Assembly: GCA_947626745.1 (NCBI GenBank)
Contig: CANQTF010000009.1
Span: 34,707-98,706, forward strand
Length of the DNA: 64,000 bases
Source of the DNA: an uncultured Lachnospiraceae bacterium
Lineage (GTDB): Bacteria; Bacillota; Clostridia; Lachnospirales; Lachnospiraceae
Direction of reading: 5' to 3'
The notes beneath the pieces are model-generated. The model worked only from the letters and a program-made list of their open reading frames with translations, had not been told where the DNA came from and did not search any database. Each line of letters opens with the position of its first letter. The stretch's first letter is position 1. Both the position numbers and the translations under genes were made by a program. Of the stretch, positions 4,371-52,474 are shown piece after piece.

Positions 4371-6410
4371 CTAGCGCACAAGCAGCAGCGCGGACGCCGC
4401 CGCGTCCTGTTCGTCAAAAGAGGCGTACTGCAGCATGACATCGTCGAGCACCGTCTCCGCCCCGGCGTCCAGCACCGTGATCCTGATGTCCGACGCCTCG
4501 TCGTTCAGTACCCCGTCCAGCTCGGCCCTCTCTTCCGCCGTGAGCGTATCCTGCCCCTGCACGGTCCGCCCTTCTCCGCTGCCGCGCAGCACGAACACGC
4601 CGCCCACGCTGCCGACGCTCTCCCGCGTCACGCCAAGCGCCTCAAATGCAGACGCATACCGCTCATCCTGCAGGACTTCCGCGTTATTGATCTTAAGCGC
4701 CGCCGTACAGTCCGCATATTTTAAAGCCTGAAGATAATACGCCGTGTCGGTGAACGTGGAAAACTGCACCTGCAGTTCATAGGCCGTCCTTCCGTCATCG
4801 TGCGTCCGGTTCAGCTCCTCATAGTAACGATCCGTCTCCCGCAGCCGTTGTGCCACATACGCCCGAAAAGTGTCCAGTCCCGCAGACGCTTCCGTGTAAG
4901 TGCCTTCCGGCCATCTCTCCATTTCCCGCCGATATGCGCCGGACAGGTAGATCTCTCTCTCGTACGCGTCCAGCATGGCGCCGATCGTCTCGTCCGACCA
5001 GGCCGATTCCCGCAGACGCCTGTACTTTTCATAGATCCGATCCCATGCGCCGCCGTCGCCGTTCACCAGGATCTGATTCAGATACCCGCTCTGCATGAGC
5101 ACATGATTGGACGGGGTGAGCTGATACGGGGACACCAGATTCACCGACAGATCGTTCGCGAACCAGTTGCCCCACGTGAGATCCATGTCCCAAGGGGCGT
5201 ACAGCGCCGTAGGCCCGTTCTCTCCCGCGCGTATCGCGAGGTACAGATTTTTGATATTTTTGCCGCCGACGTTATCTCCACCCTGAATCAGGTTAAAAAA
5301 CAGATAGATGTCTATGGCGTTGTCGATGTCGATGCCCGCGTACAATCTCTCATTGTCACCGCGGCCTTCCCATAGGGCATAATAATAATCCAATAGCGGC
5401 GCCCAATTCCTTTTCGCCTCGTTGACCGCTCCCTTGATGCGGAATCCCACCGGATTGCCGCCCTCCGTAAAAGCGATGCTGCCGTCCGCAGACCAGATCA
5501 CGCCCTTGTATAATCCGTCTTCGCCCGAATCGGGATCCAGCATGAGCTGTTTCTCGTCGATCGGATAGCCCAGCGCATACAAGCCCCAGTATTCTCCGTT
5601 CATAAACAGCTCCAGATACTTATATTCCGTCCCCGTGTCAACTCCCAGCGCATTGTCATCGGCGCAGGAGGCTTTCCACAGGTTGGCGCAGAATACGTTC
5701 CTGACCTTTTCCTGATCGTTGTAGGCCGGGTAGAGGATCCAGTCGTCGTCCTGCCGCATGCCCAGAAGAGAGACCTGATTGGAACGGGTATGATTGCCCG
5801 CAGAATCCGTGACAAGAGACAGACGGTATCCCTTTTTCGGAAACGCCGTCGTGGTGTTGCCCCGCACATGGATCGTTCCGTCCGACACCGCAACGCGTTT
5901 TACCGCGCCGTCCGCGTTGTCAAACAGCGTCATATGCATGGCCGCCATATCTTCCCCGATCTCGCCGCCGTCATATTCGATGTTCATGAGCGGGAGCGTC
6001 GTACATTTCAGCGTAAACCGCGCGTACGACTTATCCGTATAGAGAAGAAAACTGATGCCGGTATCGGCGGCGATCGCTTCGTCCGTGATGCTTTCCTCCA
6101 GAAAAGCGATCTTTACACCTCTCTCCCTGCTCTGTATCCTGATGTGCGGGTCGTATGCCCCGGCGTCGCCCTGTACCAGCGAATAATAATAGGTACCCGA
6201 CATGACATCGCACTGCAGCGCTTCGTCGTCAAACAGCAGCCGTTCCGGCAGACCCAGAGACGCGCTGCGTTCCGCCATGACAGCCTCGAACTCATTTTCC
6301 GTCATCACACACGCCGAATAGCGAAACGGCCGCCCGCGAAAGCATACCAGACAGATCCCGGCGGCCGCCGACAGGATCAGGATGATGATACCGAGCGCCT
6401 TCTTCATCAC
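4371..6410 (-). CDS. CotH kinase-like secreted or anchored protein
   Basis: The 679-residue protein begins with a membrane anchor or signal segment (residues 4-24). A long CotH-like domain follows, marked by HVRGNTTTAFPKKGYRL, then LGMRQDDDWILYPAY, YLELFMNGEYWGLY and a late ALYAPWDMDLTWGNWF. CotH of Bacillus is a spore-coat protein kinase, and these motifs are typical of that family outside sporulation too. Its start overlaps the DUF4956 stop (ATGA), indicating translational coupling. Association of CotH with DUF4956 and VTC domains is a recurrent bacterial arrangement. Its substrate here is unknown; an extracytoplasmic phosphotransfer role is inferred. Confidence 0.8.
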   Translation of the reverse strand: MMKKALGIIILILSAAAGICLVCFRGRPFRYSACVMTENEFEAVMAERSASLGLPERLLFDDEALQCDVMSGTYYYSLVQGDAGAYDPHIRIQSRERGVKIAFLEESITDEAIAADTGISFLLYTDKSYARFTLKCTTLPLMNIEYDGGEIGEDMAAMHMTLFDNADGAVKRVAVSDGTIHVRGNTTTAFPKKGYRLSLVTDSAGNHTRSNQVSLLGMRQDDDWILYPAYNDQEKVRNVFCANLWKASCADDNALGVDTGTEYKYLELFMNGEYWGLYALGYPIDEKQLMLDPDSGEDGLYKGVIWSADGSIAFTEGGNPVGFRIKGAVNEAKRNWAPLLDYYYALWEGRGDNERLYAGIDIDNAIDIYLFFNLIQGGDNVGGKNIKNLYLAIRAGENGPTALYAPWDMDLTWGNWFANDLSVNLVSPYQLTPSNHVLMQSGYLNQILVNGDGGAWDRIYEKYRRLRESAWSDETIGAMLDAYEREIYLSGAYRREMERWPEGTYTEASAGLDTFRAYVAQRLRETDRYYEELNRTHDDGRTAYELQVQFSTFTDTAYYLQALKYADCTAALKINNAEVLQDERYASAFEALGVTRESVGSVGGVFVLRGSGEGRTVQGQDTLTAEERAELDGVLNDEASDIRITVLDAGAETVLDDVMLQYASFDEQDAAASALLLVR

Positions 6411-48610: not shown

Positions 48611-50152
48611 TCAGCCGAGCAGGGACAGTGCAAGCTGGTTGCTCTGGTTCGCCTGTGACAGCATGGACGTACCCGCCTGCTGCAGAATGTTGTTGTTCGC
48701 GTACTTCACCATCTCGGTAGCGATATCCGTATCGCGGATCTGCGCCTCTGCACTCGTGGTGTTCTCCACTACGTTGTCGAGGTTGTTGATCGTGTGCTCC
48801 AGTCTGTTCTGCACTGCGCCGAGAGCGGAACGCTGTGCGGAAACTCTGCTCAGAGCCGCGGAGATAGTCTCAATGGCGTTCCTGCCGTTGGTGTCGTCCT
48901 TACCGTCCACTTTCAGGCCGCTGATCCCAAGGACCTCAGCGCTCATAGCGTCGATGTCCACGGAGATCTGGTTGTTCTCTGTCGCGTCAGCGCCCACATG
49001 GAGCGTCAGCGTCAGTGCGCCCGTGGAATACGGAACACCGGAATCCACCAGTTCATCCACATCCTCCTTCTTAACCGGGCGGATCTCATCGCCGAACTTC
49101 ACATACAGATCTGCGTCCGATTTCAGCGTGCCGTCGTCGTTCAGGTACTTATACAGGCCGTTGGCCGCGATCTCGTTGCCGTCCTTGTCGGCAAACTGCG
49201 CAAGACTCTTAGTCGTCTCGAGGGCATCGAACTCAACCTTATTCAGGCTGTTCAGCTTGCCCGCGCCGACGTTCTTGTAATAGCCGTCCACAGCCTCAAC
49301 GATAGTGCCCTCCGCCAGGTCCTTGCCGTACTTATCATAGATCGTCGTGCCCGCCTTGGTCTTGTACGCAGTCGTTCCGCCAACTGTTGCTTTTGTTGCC
49401 TTTCCTACTGTACCGTCCGCATTGAACGTGACCGTATAGTAGTCGCCGCTTCCCTTTTCGGCATTCTTATCGACCTTGACATAATCGTTTCCCTCTTTTC
49501 TGTAGAGGTCGTCCTGTCCGACGATCGTTACCTCGGTAAAATCGCCAGTCTCCGCCGCTTCACCCACTTTGCCGGGTTCAGAGCTGGTGTAATAAGTGAG
49601 ATTCTCATCCATACCGCTCTTGTAAGTGCCCGCCTTAACGGTCTGTACCTCTCCTGCCGAATCGAGATAATACACGTCCTGTGCCAGCACATCCGCCGCC
49701 TTATACTTGAAATTGGTCTTATGGACTGCTGTATCGTCGCCTTTGAGCAGATACGTCTCGTTGAACTTGGTGGTTTCGGCCACACGGTCGATCTCCGTTA
49801 CCAACTGGTCGATCTCGTCCTGGATCGCCTGACGGTCGGATTCGGAATTGGTGCCGTTGGAAGCCTTGACAGCCAGCTCGTTCATTCTCTGGAGCATGTC
49901 GTGTACTTCCGTCAATGCACCCTCTGCCGTCTGTACTGCGCTGATACCGTCCTGTGCGTTCAGGGAAGCCTGTGTCAGACCTCTGATCTGGCGTCTCATC
50001 TTCTCGGAGATCGCAAGCCCTGCAGCGTCGTCAGCCGCGCGGTTGATCTTGTAACCGGAAGAGAGCTTCTCCGTGGACTTTGCCTGTGCGCTGGTCGTAA
50101 GACCGAGCATCCTGTTAGAGTTCATGGCCGTAATGTTGTGTTGTACTATCAT
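48611..50152 (-). CDS. fliC: Flagellin
   Basis: The 513-residue protein has canonical flagellin ends: N-terminal [36 protein letters not shown] and [20 protein letters not shown], and C-terminal [20 protein letters not shown] and [20 protein letters not shown]. Between them is a central domain of about 240 residues (about 150-390), the exposed variable part. AAGGAGG precedes the ATG. csrA lies immediately upstream, and the leader carries a CsrA-type hairpin. I see no sigma28 promoter in the 109-bp gap before the gene, so transcription may depend on the promoter of csrA and hence on the invertible cassette beyond it. Confidence 0.95.
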
Positions 50153-50178
50153 AGCGATACCTCCTTGTGGTTGTTCTC

Positions 50179-50196
50179 CCGCAAATCCGTTTGCGG
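50179..50196 (-). promoter_or_regulatory. CsrA-type hairpin in the flagellin leader
   Basis: On the minus strand CCGCAAA-CGGA-TTTGCGG forms a perfect 7-bp stem with GGA in the loop, the classic CsrA recognition element. The flagellin ribosome binding site AAGGAGG, about 20 bp downstream, supplies a second GGA. This matches CsrA control of hag translation in Bacillus. Confidence 0.75.
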
Positions 50197-50261
50197 AAAA
50201 TTTTTTTATTTAGTTGTCATATAATCAACCGAAAAGCCTAGGATTTTTCGGCAATTACCAG

Positions 50262-50546
50262 TTACCTGACCGTCGTCTTCGCGCTCACGCGCGTGTCGTT
50301 GATGACGATGTTTTTCTTTCTGCGGTACTTCTCAGGCGTCTCCGGCTCCGCGTAGTACTTGGGGAGTTTTGCCTTCTCTGCCGGGTCTTCGGTGTGCTTT
50401 TCAATATAATTGCCCCGCACCACATTGACCTCCTTGGGCGCGTCCACCATGATCCGCAGATGTTTGCCCGTGCCGCCCAAAAATGCGATCTTGACGTTAT
50501 CGCCGAGCTGCAGATATTCCTCTGTCGAAAGTGTCAGCCTTAACAT
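50262..50546 (-). CDS. csrA: CsrA translational regulator with long C-terminal tail
   Basis: From ATG 50546 (after GGGAGG) the protein has 94 residues. Residues 1-50 match CsrA (MLRLTLSTEEYLQLGDNVKI, then HLRIMVDAPKEVNVVRG), including the Arg that contacts GGA loops. The last 44 residues (rich in Glu, Lys, Pro and Tyr) exceed the 60-75 residue norm and resemble nothing I know. CsrA binds GGA-containing hairpins to block translation. The partner gene fliW, often adjacent, is not in this window. No promoter is apparent directly upstream in the present orientation of the neighbouring cassette. Confidence 0.85.
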   Translation of the reverse strand: MLRLTLSTEEYLQLGDNVKIAFLGGTGKHLRIMVDAPKEVNVVRGNYIEKHTEDPAEKAKLPKYYAEPETPEKYRRKKNIVINDTRVSAKTTVR

Positions 50547-50603
50547 ATCGTTACCTCCCTGTATCCTTTTGGCGTCCCTGCCGCCGCTGTCATGCACACT
50601 CTG

Positions 50604-50632
50604 ATGTAACACTTTGTTATAGAATGTTGCAT
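50604..50632 (+). repeat. Left recombination site of the invertible cassette
   Basis: ATGTAACACTT-TGTTATA-GAATGTTGCAT: two 11-bp inverted arms (outer arm imperfect) around a 7-bp asymmetric spacer. The inner 18 bp are repeated in inverted orientation at 51332-51349. This geometry is that of tyrosine recombinase core sites. Confidence 0.8.
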
Positions 50633-50669
50633 CAGGGATATGCATTTTACAGACAAAGGAGAGAGACCT

Positions 50670-51251
50670 ATGGGTACAACGGAACCGATCAAAAACAGAG
50701 AGGACTTACTGAAATTCAAAGCTTACTATGAGAGTGTGCATCCGGACGGGCGCAACGCGCTCCTTCTGACTATCGGGCTGAACACGGCGCTCCGCATCGG
50801 CGATATCCTCGCCCTGCGGTGGCGGGACGTCTATGACTTTGACAGGGAATGTGTGCGCGGACATATCCGCGTGCAGGAACAGAAGACAGGGAAACTCAAC
50901 ATCGTGGCGATCAATCCGACGGTGCGCGAAAGGCTGCTGCTCTTTCGCGAGGAAAACAGAGAGGCGTCGGCGGACGATTATCTTTTTCAGAGCAGGAAGG
51001 GACAAGGAATGCCGCTCAGCCGTTATCAGGCTTTCCGTATCACAAGAGCAGCGGCCGTCTACGCGGGGCTGGAAGAACACGTAAGCTGTCACTCCCTGCG
51101 CAAGACCTTCGGTTATCATGCATGGAAACAGGGCGTACCGCCCGTTATGCTGATGAAGATATTCAATCACTCTTCCTATCAGATCACGATCCGCTATCTG
51201 TGCATTGAGCAGGATGAAAAGGACGAAGTTTTCCGCAATATCGCCCTGTAA
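50670..51251 (+). CDS. FimB-sized tyrosine recombinase (DNA invertase)
   Basis: The 193-residue protein consists only of the tyrosine recombinase catalytic domain: Arg42 (ALRIGD), Lys72 (EQKTGK), His141 and Arg144 (HSLRKTF), His167 (FNHSSY) and nucleophile Tyr176 (TIRYL). The N-terminal arm-binding domain of phage integrases is missing, the same architecture and length as the FimB/FimE invertases. AAGGAG precedes ATG 50670. The gene is enclosed by two inverted recombinase-type sites and by a sigma28 promoter at its 3' side, next to csrA-fliC. I infer it inverts its own segment to switch flagellin transcription. Confidence 0.85.
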   Translation: MGTTEPIKNREDLLKFKAYYESVHPDGRNALLLTIGLNTALRIGDILALRWRDVYDFDRECVRGHIRVQEQKTGKLNIVAINPTVRERLLLFREENREASADDYLFQSRKGQGMPLSRYQAFRITRAAAVYAGLEEHVSCHSLRKTFGYHAWKQGVPPVMLMKIFNHSSYQITIRYLCIEQDEKDEVFRNIAL

Positions 51252-51282
51252 TAGAAAAAAAGAAAAATTTTTGATTTCGCTC

Positions 51283-51309
51283 TAAAGTATTTTGCAGTAC
51301 AGCCGATAT
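51283..51309 (+). promoter_or_regulatory. sigma28 (flagellar) promoter inside the cassette, pointing right
   Basis: TAAAGTAT (51283-51290), an 11-bp spacer and GCCGATAT (51302-51309) match the enteric FliA consensus TAAAGTTT-N11-GCCGATAA at 14 of 16 positions. It lies after the recombinase gene and fires toward the right recombination site, where there is no plus-strand gene. After inversion it would face csrA-fliC. Confidence 0.85.
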
Positions 51310-51330
51310 ATGTTGTGAAAATAAAAAACA

Positions 51331-51366
51331 AATGCAACATTCTATAACAGAATGTTGCATTTTTAT
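51331..51366. terminator. Right site as hairpin terminator
   Basis: The palindrome AATGCAACATTCT...AGAATGTTGCATT is followed by TTTTATTTT on the plus strand and by TTTTTTATTTT on the minus strand. It should terminate both the recombinase/sigma28 transcripts and the small minus-strand ORF. Confidence 0.65.
51332..51360 (-). repeat. Right recombination site of the invertible cassette
   Basis: ATGCAACATTC-TATAACA-GAATGTTGCAT: perfect 11-bp arms around a spacer that is the exact reverse complement of the left site's spacer. The two sites are therefore inverted with respect to each other, the arrangement that yields inversion rather than excision. Confidence 0.85.
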
Positions 51367-51524
51367 TTTACCCCAAGAGAAGCCCGCCGATACCTTCGCA
51401 CCGCCTGTTGCTGCTTGTCAAGGACGTATTCATCATTTTCTATCAAATATCTTGTCTTTTCGATCTGATGCTGCAAGCAGGGCGGCGTCTGCCCCGCGGT
51501 GTTGGTCTGAATGTTGTCGCTCAT
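51363..51524 (-). CDS. Hypothetical 53-residue protein beside the switch
   Basis: ATG 51524 follows a strong AAAGGAGGAAC site. The product starts MSDNIQTNTAGQTPP and has a helical, Gln/Arg-rich second half (YLIENDEYVLDKQQQAVRRY). No family recognised. The stop codon abuts the right recombination site, which also serves as its terminator. It could assist recombination directionality, like a small accessory factor, but no helix-turn-helix is evident. Confidence 0.6.
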   Translation of the reverse strand: MSDNIQTNTAGQTPPCLQHQIEKTRYLIENDEYVLDKQQQAVRRYRRASLGVK

Positions 51525-51541
51525 GTTCCTCCTTTGAACGC

Positions 51542-51584
51542 AAAAAAGGCACATGGTTTACAATTTACTGTTCCATGCGCCTTT
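51542..51584 (-). terminator. Terminator of the Rpn-family gene
   Basis: On the minus strand AAAGGCGCATGG and CCATGTGCCTTTTTT form a 12-bp stem with a long loop and a T run, 30 bp after the Rpn stop codon. Confidence 0.8.
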
Positions 51585-51613
51585 ACGCTGTTATTTTGAT
51601 ATCAAATTATTGA

Positions 51614-52474
51614 TTATGCCAGTTGCATGATTTCGGCTTCTAATTCTTTGATGTCACTGTCAATCAAATCAGGAAAACAATCAGATACTTCATCAATTTT
51701 TATCTTTCCTAATTTCAAAAGCCTACGGGCATTTTCCTTTGTTTCTTCGTATCGTTCACTCTTGATAAACGACTTCATTATCTGTTCTTCATCAAACAAA
51801 CTCATCATAATCGTCACAACCTCCTTTTCTCTCTCAAGCAAATATTCCCTCAAAACATTCCTGTCTTTACATATTCTGATTGTTTCCATAACCGCTTTTT
51901 GTGTCATTCCATGCTGTTTTGTCTGCTCATTAAAAACTTTACAGAAAATAATGTACTGATTGATGATGTCGTCCTTATCGCTTTCATAGATAACCTTTGC
52001 TTTTACCTCAATGTCGATATCTGCACCCTCAAAAAATTCTTGTGAAAAAGATATCTTATCGGGTTTTCGCCCTTTGTTTCCTGTAAAAATCACATAAAGT
52101 TCAGGCTTCGGCATTTTCACTTTCTTGCTTTTGTAATAGTTTTGGTTCGTGCGCTGAAAATATTCGTGATAACTTTGCGCCAAATATAGCAAAACTCTTA
52201 CTAAAATATTCATTGTCCATGTTGATTGTGCTTCTACAAGGATCATCAACTTATTGTTGACAATAAAGCCTAAGTCGTTATAAAGATTATCGGTCAGCAC
52301 ATTTTCTATCGTTACATCGGTCAATGAGTCCTCTGTCGCTGTGACGTCCTCCGGGTGAAGTGTTTTATATAACTTTAGCAAATAACTCTTATTTTGAAAA
52401 AGGTCAAGGAATACACTGTTTTTTGCGGTACGCTTTGCCATTACCTCCTGTGTCTGCCTTGTATCGTCCTGCAC
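51614..52474 (-). CDS. Rpn/YhgA-family PD-(D/E)xK nuclease or putative transposase
   Basis: The 286-residue protein matches the Rpn (recombination-promoting nuclease) family: N-terminal AKNSVFLDLFQNKSYLLKLY, catalytic core LTDNLYNDLGFIVNNKLMILVEAQS (Asp and Glu-x-Gln), WTMNILVRVLLYLAQSYHEY, and a helical C-terminus with the repeated pattern seen in many copies per genome. GTG 52474, after GAGG, is the likely start; Met12 has its binding site too close. The coding sequence is clearly richer in A and T than its neighbours, which suggests horizontal acquisition. Confidence 0.85.
   Translation of the reverse strand: MQDDTRQTQEVMAKRTAKNSVFLDLFQNKSYLLKLYKTLHPEDVTATEDSLTDVTIENVLTDNLYNDLGFIVNNKLMILVEAQSTWTMNILVRVLLYLAQSYHEYFQRTNQNYYKSKKVKMPKPELYVIFTGNKGRKPDKISFSQEFFEGADIDIEVKAKVIYESDKDDIINQYIIFCKVFNEQTKQHGMTQKAVMETIRICKDRNVLREYLLEREKEVVTIMMSLFDEEQIMKSFIKSERYEETKENARRLLKLGKIKIDEVSDCFPDLIDSDIKELEAEIMQLA

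Follow-up and report, generated by a model that had tools for sequence, protein, structure and literature searches.

A csrA-flagellin operon of a Lachnospiraceae bacterium adjoins a predicted invertible cassette carrying its own tyrosine recombinase and a sigma-28-type promoter

Within the window (the whole stretch of 64,000 nucleotides analysed here), a cassette that encodes its own tyrosine recombinase and contains a predicted sigma-28 promoter lies beside a csrA-flagellin operon and, judging by its sequence, very probably inverts, joining the promoter to the operon or parting the two. In its sequence, the cassette comprises a pair of recombination sites, the recombinase gene and a promoter match of defined direction, together with the csrA and flagellin genes (Table 1). 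The kind of switch is known, its form is new, and many relatives in this gut family share it.

Table 1. Coordinates of the cassette and its neighbouring features in the window.
Feature	Position	Strand	Basis or remark
Flagellin fliC, 513 aa	48611..50152	-	PF00669 + PF00700
Hairpin CCGCAAA-CGGA-TTTGCGG in fliC leader, predicted CsrA-binding site	50179..50196	-	Folding + covariation
csrA, 94 aa, CsrA domain + C-terminal extension	50262..50546	-	PF02599 E 2.2e-14 (on longer frame 50262-50645)
csrA-side (proximal) recombination site	50604..50632	.	11-7-11
193-aa tyrosine recombinase inside segment, consisting of the catalytic domain alone	50670..51251	+	PF00589 E 4.4e-25
Sigma-28-type promoter match TAAA-N15-GCCGATAT	51283..51309	+	Sole strict match in 64 kb
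Terminator-like hairpin with T-rich tail, coincides with distal site	51330..51372	+ (also called on other strand)	Consensus + folding
Distal recombination site	51332..51360	.	11-7-11, arms perfectly palindromic

The two sites are 29-nt inverted repeats that match at 26 of 29 positions (90% complementary) and are identical over the inner 18 bp. Their spacers, TGTTATA at the proximal and TATAACA at the distal site, are reverse complements, and TGTTATAGAATGTTGCAT is common to both sites. The outer arm of the proximal site, ATGTAACACTT, breaks the palindrome, and three T are found among the ten bases toward csrA. The cassette measures 757 bp between its outer edges and 728 bp from start to start, and its inverted-repeat score of 22.1 compares with 15.7 for the best dinucleotide-shuffled flank pair. 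The earlier note had described two opposed 11-7-11 sites with reverse-complement spacers and 18 bp in common, enclosing the gene of a 193-residue recombinase with a full catalytic set; coordinates and sequence agree with the sites as described, the open reading frame falls within 50604-51360, and the PF00589 match, with the residues conserved in 79-80 of 80 aligned loci, bears out the enzyme.

The recombinase scores 88.9 bits against Pfam PF00589 (Phage_integrase; curated cut-off 27.1), which is its sole Pfam family at E 0.001, a Hin-type serine recombinase domain being absent at that threshold. Residues R42, K72, K75, H141, R144 and H167 are invariant across the 80 aligned loci, and Y176 is kept in 79 of them; we take R42, K72, K75, the H-x-x-R pair, H167 and Y176 to be the catalytic positions of tyrosine recombinases. 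Scores against the NCBIfam models NF007371 (46.7 bits, cut-off 222) and NF007370 (33.5 bits, cut-off 221), presumably those of FimB/FimE, lie far below membership. The best PHROGs family carries the label integrase. A scan of viral contigs returned two stretches with a pattern match and no confirmed relative, and thus, at that scan's sensitivity, no sign of a phage-borne form.

Sigma-70-type matches number four in 50100-51600 against 1.8 expected. The nearest one upstream of the recombinase on the same strand, a 9-of-12 match at 50540-50567(+), is outside the segment, about 100 bases 5' of the start codon. On inspection, the proximal spacer with the next two bases reads TGTTATAGA, like an extended -10 element. 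Recombinase expression could vary with orientation if either TGTTATAGA or the match at 50540-50567 acts as its promoter.

A flagellar promoter within the cassette had been proposed in the earlier note, which gave no position, and the match listed in Table 1 now supplies one. The strict pattern (TAAA, 14-16 bases, GCCGATA) was built on the sigma-28 consensus as generally known in the field. This consensus agrees with the one quoted in the available text of PMC3720852. The match sits between the recombinase 3' end and the distal site and is directed away from csrA-fliC; the assembled orientation is therefore predicted to be OFF, and inversion to give ON. An element of the same form (with TCCGATA) precedes two other flagellin genes of the genome. 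By sequence, the cassette has the arrangement expected of an inverton, with a promoter between inverted sites and upstream of its target.

A scan of genome contigs yielded 145 recombinase relatives, the best 80 of which were kept; the counts given here refer to these 80 and the window (81 loci), with one genome per species. Paired inverted sites are present in 70 of the 81 loci, and the recombinase lies inside the segment in 68. Of 80 loci tested, 66 have an inverted repeat with a score of at least 14 on either side of the recombinase, as against 7 of 240 dinucleotide-shuffled flank pairs; the scores of L007 (15.7), L012 (14.9) and L048 (15.5) are no higher than that of the best shuffle (15.7). 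Relatives that keep the recombinase and lack the sites would, according to the earlier note, speak against inversion. Beside the 70 paired loci, three (L015, L019 and L035) end at contig edges, two (L057 and L059) have a single site within the 1500 bases searched, and in six (L032, L039, L052, L055, L066 and L067) no paired sites, csrA or flagellin were found nearby. Their recombinases may act in trans or at other switches. The recombinase relative in L052 adjoins ATP synthase genes.

Two layouts occur, with the promoter either at the recombinase 3' end, as in the window, or at its 5' end, and both are seen ON and OFF; the loci seen with the second layout, L077 and L081 for example, have GTAACA arms. 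Enlarged cassettes with the same site form are found at L037:3936-5941 (2006 bp) and L043:3951-5770 (1820 bp), and small promoter segments with the recombinase outside at L041:3511-3726 (216 bp) and L047:737-1185 (449 bp). In L043, a 369-aa open reading frame (4542-5651) lies inside the enlarged segment beside the recombinase and promoter. csrA is present in 70 of 71 loci with a flagellin, the remaining locus being the contig-cut L015. Among the best 80 of the 145, at least five genomes carry two or three cassettes, the spacers differing within each genome, and L073 (1976-5576) holds two cassettes and flagellin genes in tandem, again with different spacers.

The titles of these best 80 of 145 records mostly name Lachnospiraceae, Acetatifactor, Roseburia or Blautia, others naming Eubacterium, Clostridium, Bacillus, Bacillota or just bacterium, and many mention gut samples of rabbit, deer, goat or sheep. 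At the level of protein matches, the recombinase has a match at E 1e-20 or better in 40 of 77 genomes of the genus (own genome included) and at 1e-30 in 33 of 397 genomes sampled from the family. Six genomes of the window's genus carry loci identical to L004-L009. Near the cassette, the window also encodes a 286-aa open reading frame (51614-52474, minus strand) that matches nothing in Pfam, NCBIfam or PHROGs at E 0.001; L040:528-1409 contains a relative at 64%.

Promoter direction relative to csrA-flagellin was compared across 70 loci: 63 point away (OFF), six point toward (ON; L007, L022, L026, L070, L076 and L081) and one, L071, is undecided, its promoter match being without the CGAT core. 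L048 (OFF) and L076 (ON) were called by csrA, no flagellin match being found in the stretch examined, and L075 was scored OFF, its match falling inside the recombinase gene; a first-pass tally over the 81 loci had stood at 57 OFF, 7 ON and 17 uncalled. In 68 of 69 promoter-bearing loci, 36-58 bp separate the end of the promoter from the outer end of the repeat toward which it points; in the 69th, L010, the distance was taken from a spurious first match, and the second match gives 42.

The six ON loci require six changes on the tree of 80 recombinases, against a mean of 5.9 for shuffled labels, so that orientation does not track descent. Three pairs of opposite orientation (L007 and the window, L070 and L073, L076 and L079) share 73-81% DNA identity, and in each of them an alignment that runs in one sense along the csrA flank runs in the other along the segment, the change falling at the sites. 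For the ON loci L022 and L026, alignments to OFF relatives stop short of the csrA-side site. Related loci thus present both orientations, broken at the sites, as expected of an inverton, and their occurrence across related species suggests that the cassette likely flips and turns an alternative flagellin on and off. The window's own assembly was searched for another copy of the stretch with promoter and distal site, which would have revealed the other orientation, and contained none.

Further evidence comes from the sites themselves. A tyrosine recombinase needs identity in the spacer, and in 65 of 66 loci the two sites have identical central 6-7 bp; between loci, this holds in 50 of 1632 comparisons. 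Within a locus, the spacer is the best-kept part of the sites (19 mismatches in 513 positions, against 72 of 726 in the inner and 157 of 726 in the outer arms). In 50 of 66 loci the palindrome is poorer at the csrA-side site than at the distal one (equal in 14, better in 2), and similarly in four of the six ON loci (equal in one, better in L022), so that, whichever way the segment lies, the weaker arm mostly remains beside csrA.

With 63 of 69 called loci OFF, the tally would equally suit a switch that is seldom used or mostly locked. On one such reading the inversion is real and mostly ancestral, the cassette now being largely locked OFF and the recombinase kept for some other task such as action in trans. 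Two OFF loci may be natural candidates for locked switches, namely L045 (4001-4579), where Cys replaces the catalytic Tyr, and L012, where the spacers of the two sites are unequal, and the six relatives with no paired sites, csrA or flagellin found nearby point the same way. However, the catalytic residues are kept in 79-80 of 80 loci, spacer identity within loci persists despite divergence between them, which decay would erase, and ON loci arise at six separate places on the tree; we therefore regard a mostly locked cassette as improbable and favour one that still inverts.

The genome containing the window (83.5% complete) yields six matches to PF00669: four are of flagellin type, and the two others, which are weaker, look to us like FlgL. 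Two of the three further flagellin-type genes sit behind sigma-28-type promoters, and a search for the cassette-type site pattern in the stretches around all three found none. A GCAGC-ATGGAA-GCTGC hairpin is present in the leaders of the flagellins on contigs C2 and C10. As the switch affects one of four flagellin-type genes, it probably does not govern flagellation as a whole, and with three further flagellin genes, two of them behind site-free sigma-28-type promoters, a change in filament composition is expected over a loss of motility. The earlier reading of the cassette as the switch for flagellin expression is supported by the two orientations in relatives, and narrowed to one flagellin of four. 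A switch governing motility as a whole, like the C. difficile flg switch, would accord with the flagellar sigma-28-type promoter and with an operon that encodes flagellin; in view of the three further flagellin-type genes, two of them behind sigma-28-type promoters and none with a cassette-type site found around it, we think such a role improbable.

The csrA product scores 53.6 bits against PF02599 (cut-off 27) and falls below the NCBIfam equivalog cut-offs (36.3 against 73 and 26.8 against 70.1). Two further csrA genes of the genome stand beside fliW; the cassette csrA is without it. The genome's shorter CsrA is a 72-residue open frame. CsrA sites have the form of a hairpin whose loop contains GGA, and such a hairpin occupies the csrA-flagellin gap in 65 of 68 loci, compared with 116 of 680 shuffles, ending 24-36 bases 5' of the flagellin start in 54 of the 65. 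Covariation was assessed on the 60 distinct sequences of the 68 loci, the NGGA being chosen by distance alone. In the leader stems 83% of cells pair, with 82 two-sided changes; the maxima of 500 shuffles were 65% and 38, and three slid-stem controls reached at most 40% pairing and 54 two-sided changes.

The distal site has the features of an intrinsic terminator. In the window its hairpin folds with -17.5 kcal/mol, and none of 200 shuffles was as good; the hairpin is A+T-rich, and promoter and terminator are both consensus matches. Over the ten bases outward, the distal site has more T than the proximal site in 66 of 66 loci (mean 7.1, range 4-9, against mean 2.8, range 0-6), some proximal sites carrying 5-6 T. 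The distal T fraction is 0.69 in the first ten bases and 0.31-0.34 from the third ten onward, and the proximal fraction is 0.18-0.26 throughout. The distal hairpin is the stabler of the two in 57 of the 66 loci, equal in three and less stable in six; in the ON locus L022 it is the weaker (-3.6 against -10.7 kcal/mol). The distal T excess is present in all six ON loci as well, as expected of flanks that do not flip. From these features we infer that the distal site would end the OFF transcript and that the proximal site is shaped for passage of the ON transcript. That the repeats are mere transcription terminators, or the ends of a small mobile element, would suit the terminator-like distal hairpin and the integrase label of the best PHROGs family, but is very unlikely given the segment inverted between its sites in three aligned related pairs, spacers identical within and mostly different between loci, csrA adjoining in 70 of 71 flagellin loci and no relative confirmed in the viral collection.

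Taking the repeats as inversion sites, the cassette would work as follows. Crossover in the 7-bp spacer would invert the 757-bp cassette. In the OFF orientation the promoter would fire rightwards and its transcript end at the distal site, whose hairpin, followed by a T-rich tail, would serve as intrinsic terminator; in the ON orientation transcription from this promoter would pass the proximal site, which is poorer in T and usually forms the weaker hairpin, and enter csrA and fliC. The sigma-28 promoter would tie the output to the flagellar hierarchy, CsrA binding at the GGA-loop hairpin of the leader would set the amount of flagellin, and inversion would alter the composition of the filament rather than abolish motility.

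More tentatively, the cassette could be a portable Lachnospiraceae counterpart of Hin, its "own Hin", combining tyrosine recombinase, invertible sigma-28 promoter, csrA and flagellin. The joint crossover site and terminator would make OFF tight, the co-switched CsrA would serve as an FljA-like silencer of the fixed flagellins through their GGA-loop leaders, and multiple modules flipping independently would produce a combinatorial flagellin coat. We hold this extended scheme as a possibility that is rather less likely to be right than wrong.

Lachnospiraceae flagellins are major gut antigens and TLR5 ligands. If the switch is real, flagellin display in these bacteria would be set partly by DNA orientation, readable from existing metagenome reads. 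It would also give the classic Salmonella system a counterpart with a different recombination chemistry, and a case in which recombination site and terminator are predicted to be the same DNA. A literature search by title and abstract start found no such Lachnospiraceae switch among the matches listed, its coverage lying apart from most subscription journals and bioRxiv, and in the available text of PMC3720852, on Eubacterium and Roseburia flagellin genes, the terms recombinase, integrase and phase variation each have 0 occurrences.

The flg switch of C. difficile resembles the cassette in that a clostridial tyrosine recombinase, RecV, inverts a segment upstream of flagellar genes (PMC5386303, PMC7446863, as far as their accessible text goes). 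According to the same parts of PMC5386303, however, the flg segment is 154 bp long, has no promoter activity and is too small for a recombinase, and the switch affects the early flgB operon at a step later than transcription initiation (Rho) (PMC5386303, PMC7446863); RecV also serves other switches (PMC5903667, in the portion available). In a RecV-type flg switch the recombinase lies outside and no promoter inside, whereas our cassette holds both a recombinase open reading frame and a promoter match.

In the fim switch of E. coli, the short tyrosine recombinases FimB and FimE, encoded outside, invert a promoter segment, and the target is fimbriae. The segment is short and promoter-only (PMC5903667, available part). 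The small promoter segments of L041 and L047, with the recombinase outside, share this fim-like layout. An 844-bp fimbrial segment of Providencia stuartii that encloses a recombinase is reported as a putative inverton in the available part of PMC5903667, a further precedent for such a cassette; it likewise has a recombinase inside a putative invertible segment near surface-structure genes, there for fimbriae and in an enterobacterium.

As to the regulator, the cassette has an extra csrA without fliW in the switched operon, unlike the Hag-FliW-CsrA system of B. subtilis. There, CsrA binds the flagellin leader. In this homeostasis CsrA helps to restrict flagellin (PMC6529632, in its accessible text).

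By function and layout, the nearest known system is hin-fljBA of Salmonella, of which our best reading makes the cassette a tyrosine-recombinase counterpart. In the accessible part of PMC9368917, the invertible segment likewise carries its own recombinase gene, hin, together with the promoter of the flagellin operon fljBA; that operon pairs a flagellin with a regulator of flagellin expression (FljA there and, by prediction, CsrA here), and another flagellin gene lies elsewhere. The earlier note had known of no cassette bearing both its recombinase and a flagellar promoter; this claim to novelty does not stand, since with Hin a self-encoded switch for flagellin was known before. Hin is, however, a serine recombinase that acts at hix sites with a Fis/HU-dependent enhancer (PMC9368917, same part), unrelated to the tyrosine recombinase (PF00589) of the cassette. 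Moreover, and unlike hin-fljBA, the csrA of the cassette precedes the flagellin, and its distal crossover site is at the same time a predicted terminator. The cassette and Hin thus differ in recombination chemistry, in the terminator-site and in the coupling to csrA.
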